A stretch of DNA of 44,105 nt from Candidatus Pollutiaquabacter sp. (GTDB lineage Bacteria > Bacteroidota > Bacteroidia > AKYH767-A > 2013-40CM-41-45): NCBI GenBank assembly GCA_947465495.1, contig CANIAS010000021.1:1-44105 (forward strand), read 5' to 3'. This document shows positions 11,442-13,484 of this stretch, in pieces. The notes beneath the pieces were generated by a model. That model had not been told where the DNA came from and did not search any database. It saw only the letters and a list, made by a program, of their open reading frames with translations. A program made the translations under genes and the position numbers. Position 1 is the stretch's first letter. Every line of letters starts with the position of its first letter.

Positions 11442-11900
11442 TTAGCTGGCAAGTTTTGTTTCAGGGGCCGCTTCGACTACAGGTTTAAAGACAATGATTG
11501 ATTTGATGGAGTTGGATATCAGGCAAGCTGCTTCTGATTTAGCAAGAATTCTCAAGGTTCGTTCTTTGTCTCGCTCATGACTAATAACTACATTGGGTTC
11601 TAAAATTATTTCACTCATGGTTAGTTTTCCATCCATCATTTCCAGTTTGCCGGTGGCCTTTGAGTGAAAATCGAGAAATTCCAGTTTGGAATTTTCGGCA
11701 ATTGCCAAAAAGGTCGTCATCAAGCAGCTATTAACAGCTGCGGTGAAAAGATGTTCTGGGGACCAAATGTCAGGAATGCCTTGCGGAAATTCCGGAGGTG
11801 TTGCAACTTGGATGGATTCATGCAGGACGGGAGAAGTTAGTGTACCCCGTCGTTCGGCATCCCATTTAACGTTTACTTCGTAGTGATGTATAGTTTCCAT
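11442..11900 (-). CDS. OsmC/Ohr-family thiol-dependent peroxidase
   Basis: A 152-residue OsmC-superfamily protein. The family's two redox cysteines are visible: AAVNSCLMTTF (first half) and KSEAACLISNSIK (second half), together with the preceding conserved SPEHLFTAAV. OsmC and Ohr proteins reduce organic hydroperoxides with a Cys pair, and related members act on sulfane sulfur. It is last in a run of two rhodaneses and a thioredoxin and starts 2 nt after the thioredoxin stop, so thioredoxin could supply its electrons, although Ohr proteins usually use lipoyl donors. The ATG at 11898-11900 is chosen over an in-frame start at 11963 because the latter would overlap trxA. Confidence 0.88.
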   Translation of the reverse strand: METIHHYEVNVKWDAERRGTLTSPVLHESIQVATPPEFPQGIPDIWSPEHLFTAAVNSCLMTTFLAIAENSKLEFLDFHSKATGKLEMMDGKLTMSEIILEPNVVISHERDKERTLRILAKSEAACLISNSIKSIIVFKPVVEAAPETKLAS

Positions 11901-11902
11901 GA

Positions 11903-12196
11903 TTAATATTTTTCTACTATTCGTTGTAGTTGATCGGCTGGAATGACGCCCGATTGCCGCCATTTAATTTCACCTTCTTTAAAAAGAATCAGTGTTGGTA
12001 CCCCTTGTATTTGGTAAGCTTGCGCAGCTGCTGGGTTCTTATCGACATCTACTTTTAGAATAGTGATTTTGTCGCCCAATTGCTTTTTTACCTGTTCTAA
12101 AATAGGTGCCATCATTTTACATGGTCCGCACCATGTCGCAGTAAAATCTACCAATACTGGCTTTTCTCCGTGTATCAAGGATTGGAAATTGCTCAT
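11903..12196 (-). CDS. trxA: Thioredoxin
   Basis: A 97-residue cytosolic thioredoxin with the redox motif [13 protein letters not shown], the cis-proline segment [11 protein letters not shown], and the conserved VDVDKNP and LVDF strands. The length is slightly short for the family (about 105) but complete. It sits between two rhodanese genes and OsmC (gaps of 11 and 2 nt), suggesting it reduces persulfidated or oxidised cysteines produced by its neighbours rather than serving only as a general thioredoxin. Confidence 0.95.
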
Positions 12197-12207
12197 TGTA
12201 GAATAGA

Positions 12208-12519
12208 TTATAAGTACTTATTCAACGTGTGCCAGCTTCCTCCGTTGTAAACTTCCTGGAATCCTTGTGCGCGAAGGTAGGATTTGGCTGAACCGCTTCG
12301 CATACCAGATGCACAACAAGTAATGATTGGCTTTTCTTTATGAAGTTTTGAAACTTGTTGTGGTAGCTGTTGCAATGGGATGTTCACCGATCCCTTCAGG
12401 TGTCCACTTTGATATTCTCCTCTTGTACGCACATCGATGATAGTAGCACCTGCTTTAATCAATGCGCTATAGTCCGCTTTAGGCCCAATTCCCAATATTC
12501 GCTTTAAAGTATTTAGCAT
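12208..12519 (-). CDS. Single-domain rhodanese (sulfurtransferase), second copy
   Basis: A 103-residue rhodanese-like protein. After a short basic helix ([18 protein letters not shown]) the rhodanese fold follows, with [23 protein letters not shown] and the active-site loop [12 protein letters not shown], in which the second Cys is the expected persulfide-carrying residue. The C-terminal YNGGSW motif is usual for this subgroup. The fold transfers sulfane sulfur between donors and thiols. It lies 11 nt after the first rhodanese, which it resembles (same CCASG loop), so the two probably arose by tandem duplication. The ATG at 12517-12519 is used; an in-frame start at 12567 would overlap the upstream gene. 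Confidence 0.92.
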
Positions 12520-12530
12520 GTATATTTTTT

Positions 12531-12785
12531 TTAATTGTTGTTTATAAGCAGATTTACTCGCATCCAAGGTCCGCCGTTTTCACAGGCTATTCCTTTTGAC
12601 TTTAAATAACGTGTTACTTGTTCACTTCGTGCGCCAGAGGCACAGCATAGCACCAAGTCTTTTTTGTTCTCTAATTCGTGAATCCGAGCTTCGATTTCAT
12701 TAATAGGAATATTGATGCTTCCTGCAACATGACCACTCATGAATTCTTGTGGCGTACGGACATCAACGATATAGTATTTTTTCAT
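12531..12785 (-). CDS. Single-domain rhodanese (sulfurtransferase), first copy
   Basis: An 84-residue rhodanese domain with almost no extra sequence: YYIVDVRTPQEFMSGHVAGSINIP, then the active loop CCASGARSEQV and ENGGPW. The catalytic Cys is the second of the CC pair. MKKYY at 12785 is taken as the start; an ATG two codons earlier (12791) is equally possible. The gene heads the rhodanese, rhodanese, trxA and osmC unit, with a -7 element and a perfect palindrome upstream and the Crp/Fnr gene beyond. It probably moves sulfane sulfur in the cytosol, passing it to or from the neighbouring thioredoxin. Confidence 0.92.
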   Translation of the reverse strand: MKKYYIVDVRTPQEFMSGHVAGSINIPINEIEARIHELENKKDLVLCCASGARSEQVTRYLKSKGIACENGGPWMRVNLLINNN

Positions 12786-12819: not shown

Positions 12820-12827
12820 CAAATGTA
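12820..12827 (-). promoter_or_regulatory. -7 element of the rhodanese-thioredoxin-OsmC unit
   Basis: TACATTTG on the minus strand matches TAnnTTTG. The transcription start would be about 12815, leaving a 24-30 nt leader. No TTTG occurs at the normal -33 spacing; that position is occupied by a palindrome, as expected of an activator-dependent promoter. Confidence 0.55.
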
Positions 12828-12839
12828 TGGTAAGTCACT

Positions 12840-12870
12840 CCGTTTGTCAGGAACAAATGTTCCCAAACGG
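12840..12870. promoter_or_regulatory. Palindromic candidate operator for the adjacent Crp/Fnr regulator
   Basis: GGAACAAATGTTCC (12850-12863) is a perfect 6+2+6 palindrome. Just outside it lie a second pair of inverted arms, CCGTTTG (12840-12846) and CAAACGG (12864-12870), the left separated by TCA. The centre, 12856.5, is about 41 nt upstream of the predicted start at 12815. That is the class II activation position of Crp/Fnr proteins. It lies between the stop of the Crp/Fnr gene and the rhodanese start. As an RNA it could also fold, but no T-run follows on the minus strand, so a simple terminator is less likely. Confidence 0.55.
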
Positions 12871-12878
12871 TATGTTTT

Positions 12879-13484
12879 TTACAGGATTTCAATCGTATTT
12901 CGTCCCAATCGAACTAGATTTTTCTGTTCCATGGTTCGAAGTAGTCGACTAATAGCTTCTCGCTGGGCGTGCATCTCGTCAGCAATTTGCTGATGGGTGA
13001 TGAATAGAGTGGAAGTATTTATGGCTTTGCTGCGCTCCTGCAAATAATGTAACACTTGCTTGTCCATGTTGCTAAAGGCAATCAAATCAATAACATGTAA
13101 TAACTCCGCAAATCGTGACCCATAGGTTTGATGTACAAATAATCTCCATTCTTCAAATTTTTGCAGGTTTTCTAGCTCCTGAATAGGAATCATTAGTAAT
13201 TGGCTTTCATCTTCTGCAATTATTTTAACCATGCTTTGCCTTTTCATCTGGCAGCAGTTCAATGCCAATGCGCATGTCTCGCCTGAATACAAATGATACA
13301 TGAAAACCTCTTTTCCATCATTGTTCTGACGGACAACTCTCAACGCACCATCTAAAACGAACGGGACAAAATAAACTTCGTCACCAGTAGAAATGAGCAA
13401 TTCGTCCCGTTGGATGGTTTTTTTACGGGCAACACGAAAAAGTTCCTGGTTCAATTCATTGTTTTGAAAAATCGAATCCTTCAC
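12879..13484 (-). CDS. Crp/Fnr-family transcriptional regulator
   Basis: A 201-residue regulator, starting at GTG (13482-13484); the next Met is at residue 62. Residues ~15-115 form a cyclic-nucleotide-binding-like beta barrel (ELLISTGDEVYFVPFVLDGALRV). Residues ~120-145 are the dimer helix. The C-terminus is a winged helix (FITHQQIADEMHAQREAISRLLRTMEQ), with R175, E176, S179 and R180 in the recognition helix, a combination of the Crp and Fnr contact residues. The sensor domain contains SGETCALALNCCQMKR, with C71, C77 and C78. The spacing is not that of the Fnr iron-sulfur cluster, and the phosphate-binding signature of cAMP-binding Crp is not obvious. The ligand is unknown; the cysteines and the rhodanese/thioredoxin neighbours suggest a thiol-based sulfur or redox signal. 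It is likely to control the gene run immediately downstream. Confidence 0.9.
   Translation of the reverse strand: MKDSIFQNNELNQELFRVARKKTIQRDELLISTGDEVYFVPFVLDGALRVVRQNNDGKEVFMYHLYSGETCALALNCCQMKRQSMVKIIAEDESQLLMIPIQELENLQKFEEWRLFVHQTYGSRFAELLHVIDLIAFSNMDKQVLHYLQERSKAINTSTLFITHQQIADEMHAQREAISRLLRTMEQKNLVRLGRNTIEIL

Follow-up and report, generated by a model that had tools for sequence, protein, structure and literature searches.

What is the function of the short palindrome that separates a Crp/Fnr-family regulator gene from the rhodanese genes downstream of it in Candidatus Pollutiaquabacter sp.? We addressed this question in a stretch of 44,105 nt (contig CANIAS010000021.1, hereafter the window), in which the palindrome lies in the 93-nt gap between the two minus-strand genes. 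The sequence GGAACAAATGTTCC is a perfect 14-base palindrome, as the initial annotation had described it, and the exact form GGAACANNTGTTCC has a single match in the window, which is also the only one in the 2.72-Mb genome. When two mismatches were allowed, the window held two copies for 2.07 expected from shuffles, an unremarkable number. Since such matches are no commoner than in shuffles, the sequence alone is no proof of function, and the significance of the palindrome comes from its position, conservation and spacing rather than from a sequence improbable by chance. On these grounds, we consider it highly likely that the palindrome is the operator of the adjacent regulator, which would act at -41.5 as a class II activator of the rhodanese operon, with sulfane sulfur as the likeliest signal.

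As presented in Table 1, the palindrome precedes a putative promoter, and the order of the elements on the minus strand is GGAACATTTGTTCC-TGACAAACGGAGTGACTTACCA-TACATTTG-AAGT-A(+1). In flavobacterial sigma-A promoters, the -7 element occupies -12 to -5 (PMC9723704). Placing TACATTTG accordingly gives A12815 as the predicted +1 and puts the palindrome centre (12856.5) at -41.5, the position of the activator site in class II promoters and in agreement with the distance of about 41 nt proposed beforehand. The last G of TACATTTG is the 37th base after the palindrome centre (36.5 nt from the centre). The lack of a -33 element had also been pointed out, and no TTTG was found near -33 either in the window or in an alignment of 37 + 11 promoters; a weak or absent -33/-35 element is likewise a property of class II promoters. 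A composite pattern made of RACANNTGTY, 22 nt and TNNNTTTG had a single match in the genome and none with the reversed control. Regarding a wider regulon in this genome, none of the 12 one-mismatch copies of the palindrome has a -7 element at the right distance.

Table 1. Features of the regulator–rhodanese locus (positions in the window).
Feature	Position	Strand	Basis or remark
Crp/Fnr-family regulator, 201 aa; proposed to bind the box	12879..13484	-	recognition helix AQREAISR; Cys71 and Cys77/Cys78
Rhodanese A, first gene of the putatively controlled operon	12531..12785	-	likeliest start at 12785
Rhodanese B	12208..12519	-	
Thioredoxin	11903..12196	-	above the TIGR01068 cut-off
OsmC-family protein	11442..11903	-	
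Core palindrome GGAACAAATGTTCC (minus strand GGAACATTTGTTCC), proposed operator, centre -41.5	12850..12863	.	sequence; conserved in orthologues
Box in Crp register, GGGAA-CATTTG-TTCCT, equivalent to TGTRA-N6-TYACN of distant homologues	12849..12864	-	homologue comparison
-7 promoter element TACATTTG, -12 to -5	12820..12827	-	element position from PMC9723704
Predicted transcription start A, +1	12815	-	inferred from the position in PMC9723704; A in 73-82% of aligned relatives
Left outer arm CCGTTTG, not conserved, outside the operator	12840..12846	.	sequence; relatives' flanks
Right outer arm CAAACGG, not conserved	12864..12870	.	sequence; relatives' flanks

Orthologues of the regulator were gathered from whole genomes and from named genome contigs, the latter all from Bacteroidota (e.g., Mucilaginibacter, Sediminibacterium and Chitinophagaceae), and yielded a set of 53 non-redundant proteins, 52-65% identical to the adjacent Crp/Fnr protein. 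Conservation upstream of orthologous rhodanese units, the lack of which the initial annotation had named in advance as refuting its proposal, was observed: 34 of the 53 orthologues have AACANNTGTT no more than 250 nt beyond the crp stop codon, compared to a mean of 0.6 and a maximum of 3 in dinucleotide shuffles. The exact form GGAACANNTGTTCC, whose recurrence had been predicted, was found again in at least nine other loci. Counted from the box centre, TTTG ended at 37 nt in 35 boxes, and any other offset was seen at most three times. Boxes without TTTG mostly show TTTA at the same position, and the aligned promoters read ANNTTT(G/A), with an A at +1 and without the -33 motif. Because dozens of related Bacteroidota have kept this site at an identical distance, the palindrome is very probably a real and dedicated regulatory switch for sulfur-handling genes. 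The strict form AACANNTGTT was absent within 700 nt after crp in 15 of the 53 orthologues, some of which carry variant boxes. Some upstream half-sites are CCAAC instead of GGAAC, which often makes the site asymmetric. Many orthologous loci (at least ten) also have, about 270-600 nt after the crp stop codon and ahead of a second, rhodanese transcription unit, another box, TTAT-CCAACAAATGTTCC, which likewise lies 37 nt from TTTG. The upstream half of this box is CCAAC, consistently unlike the GGAAC/GTAAC of the first box.

We then compared the site with those of more distant homologues (30-45% identical, n = 83). These carry Crp-like boxes of the form TGTRA-N6-TYACN (for example TGTGACTAAAGTCACT at L018), with an offset of 37 in 42 cases and of 38 in 11, the others occurring typically 1-6 times. 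The window box shares the Crp register (GGGAACATTTGTTCCT) and, given the same register and offset, can be regarded as the subfamily version of the Crp site. The window sequence GGGAA-N6-TTCCT departs from the TGTGA-N6-TCACA of Crp itself; base for base, the box is a Crp site in which the third base of both halves has changed from T to G, turning TGTGA into gGGAA. The initial impression that the palindrome does not resemble the Crp half-site was thus correct superficially, but, being in register with TGTRA-N6-TYACN, the box is better regarded as derived from that site. A search of the genome with plain TGTRA-N6-TYAC was uninformative, since this pattern was as frequent (54 + 50) as its reversed control (52 + 53). 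In many homologues (at least eight), crp runs into the box: its stop codon is the TAA or TGA within TGTAAC or TGTGAT, so that the regulator gene and the operator have bases in common.

The sequence had been suspected to be specific to this subfamily, and the half-sites agree with this: of the boxes whose regulator carries His or Gln as residue 174, 42 of 55 have the promoter-proximal half-site GTTCC, as against none of the 25 boxes where this residue is Ser, Ala, Thr, Pro or Asn. Residue 174 is the one immediately before the recognition-helix Arg-Glu and corresponds, in an ungapped alignment with Vfr, to the Ser of the Crp Cys-Ser-Arg-Glu. The class of this residue changes three times on the tree and offers 1-2 independent contrasts; with so few independent pairs, the association between helix and half-site is not significant once ancestry is considered. 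We therefore did not retain the co-change as independent evidence, its strong raw association being confounded by ancestry. The change of half-site together with His/Gln before Arg-Glu is suggestive, and rests on two or three evolutionary events.

The box also accompanies the rhodanese operon where crp lies elsewhere. In G193 and G239, no box lies alongside crp. The sole genome-wide composite match (GGAACAAATGTTCC in G193, CCAACAAATGTTAC in G239) is located 12.5 kb from the regulator gene in the former and on another contig in the latter, and directly precedes rhodanese-rhodanese-thioredoxin or DUF6132-rhodanese-rhodanese-thioredoxin genes. This persistence with the rhodanese operon and the invariant spacing support the initial proposal of a site at the class II position tied to the Crp/Fnr subfamily. 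In a 395-genome sample of the class, the composite of AACAWWTGTTCC (whose W-W centre was picked after the alignment had been seen) and the -7 element matched in eight genomes, including G193 and the genome of the window (G000). All eight hold a His/Gln-type regulator, and in all eight the match lies beside crp or the rhodanese operon. In G152, a GTAACAAATGTTAC box with the same 37-nt spacing (L204, contig C32) was observed before an outer-membrane efflux operon, possibly the target of a paralogous Crp regulator.

The regulator scored above the PF00027 and PF13545 cut-offs, which assigns it to the family with a cNMP-binding-like domain and a Crp-type helix-turn-helix. Its score against the NCBIfam model of the cAMP-dependent Crp equivalog was 39.1 bits, far below the cut-off of 266. 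Within the sensor domain (GETCALALNCC), Cys71 is invariant in 30 of 30 aligned regulators and Cys77/Cys78 is found in most of them; this motif is a candidate thiol or persulfide sensor. The operons of relatives add YgaP-like membrane proteins and DUF6132. At L067, the regulated cluster includes, 366-1782 nt after the crp stop codon, a metallo-beta-lactamase protein that carries two rhodanese domains, a fusion that we take to resemble persulfide dioxygenases. No homologue of the regulator was found on plasmids. The only other HTH_Crp_2 protein of the genome is a 355-aa response-regulator receiver-Crp fusion (L205, G000:C2 ~19.1-20.2 kb), whose gene lies near heat-shock (Hsp20-like) and universal-stress-like genes and whose recognition helix, TATESVIR, is unlike that of the adjacent regulator.

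A palindrome at the end of a gene could also act as RNA, as a terminator or stability hairpin ending the crp transcript and extended by outer arms. The minus-strand RNA from 12872 to 12836 does fold (-14.4 kcal/mol, z -3.4) with core and outer arms paired, but a T run is absent downstream and a terminator scan found none there. The outer arms CCGTTTG/CAAACGG noticed in the initial annotation are present; one of them is nevertheless shifted by 3 nt, so that they are no symmetric extension of the palindrome, and they do not belong to the conserved site. Arms of at least 7 bp were found once in 47 boxes, for 0.11 expected from re-paired flanks, and no relative has kept arms of 7, so that we rejected them as part of the operator. 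The stable 12-bp bulged hairpin formed by these arms is found in this genome only, with a chance of about 0.2% per box. Many orthologous boxes (CCAAC...GTTCC, CCAAC...GTTAC) are unable to pair although they keep the core and the spacing, and a terminator fits poorly with a constant distance of 37 nt to a promoter element and with boxes present where crp is not alongside. A hairpin function is therefore very unlikely. The same letters also bring to mind an SOS box, as GAAC-N4-GTTC resembles the Gram-positive LexA site and the palindrome matches GAACNNNNGTTC exactly. Here we found no canonical LexA (TIGR00498) in the genome, and the site departs from the motifs of the phylum: for Bacteroidetes LexA, GGA-N5-TCC and CTAA-N5-TTAG have been published (PMC8565304), whereas the window site is GGA-N8-TCC. 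The missing canonical LexA and the different spacing make a LexA box improbable; in addition, the genes under putative control are rhodaneses and not repair genes, and distant homologues have Crp-type sites at the same place. Taken together, these observations leave the SOS reading scarcely credible.

A closer alternative accepts a Crp-type operator but supposes that the protein represses, or that another member of the family, such as the receiver-Crp fusion, is the binder. A position at -41.5 is typical of activation without proving it, and a second Crp-family gene does exist on contig C2. However, in the helix of the fusion the Arg-Glu pair is without its Arg, the distribution of the box and its half-site follow the subfamily of the adjacent regulator, and the conserved absence of a -33 element fits activation. 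We consider this alternative unlikely. We infer instead that the adjacent regulator binds the palindrome, activates rather than represses, and probably responds to sulfane sulfur.

In the mechanism that we propose for this activator, a dimer of the regulator encoded immediately upstream would bind the palindrome, centred at -41.5, in front of a Bacteroidota sigma-A promoter with a good -7 element and no -33 element. Acting in class II fashion, the bound dimer would recruit RNA polymerase and thereby switch on the rhodanese-rhodanese-thioredoxin-OsmC operon. The half-site GGAAC (gGGAA in Crp register) would be the subfamily variant of the TGTGA/TGTAA of more distant homologues, and the likeliest signal would be sulfane sulfur (persulfide or polysulfide), sensed via the conserved cysteines. 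A broader proposal, which we put forward only tentatively, is that a Crp-fold, cysteine-based sensor of sulfane sulfur, devoted to the class II activation of rhodanese/YgaP/thioredoxin operons, is present across Bacteroidota, and that in one lineage its specificity moved from TGTGA to GGAAC along with a change from Ser/Ala to His/Gln beside Arg-Glu. Few activator sites are defined in Bacteroidota, and promoters in this phylum are unlike the E. coli ones. With its -41.5 geometry invariant across many families, the pair of regulator and site could serve to model how class II activators work at TAnnTTTG promoters, and it defines a predicted sulfur-stress regulon. It would also show, in nature, a Crp site altered in sequence and unmoved in place.

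With regard to known systems, the literature searched contained no report of a Crp-family activator or sensor of sulfane sulfur, and nothing relevant on class II sites in Bacteroidota. Sulfane-sulfur regulators of the MarR family, OxyR and the YrkD-type repressors are reported to control rhodanese and persulfide detoxification genes, but differ in protein family from the Crp-family regulator described here. With Fnr (TTGAT-N4-ATCAA), the regulator shares the family fold and the Ser-Arg closing the recognition helix, whereas the half-site differs and the NCBIfam Fnr match reaches 19 bits for a cut-off of 228. Crp class II promoters (TGTGA-N6-TCACA, centre -41.5) have in common with the window site the register, the 6-nt spacer, the -41.5 centre, the missing upstream promoter element and the Arg-Glu-x-x-x-Arg helix. 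The present system differs from Crp in its half-site, GGAAC (gGGAA in register), in a cysteine-bearing sensor domain of weak relatedness, in a regulator that serves one operon, and in a Bacteroidota promoter of the TAnnTTTG type. The closest solved sequence is PDB 3dv8 (E 1e-20), an uncharacterised regulator of the Crp/Fnr family whose aligned stretch also has Cys at the sensor motif, and a His before Arg-Glu.
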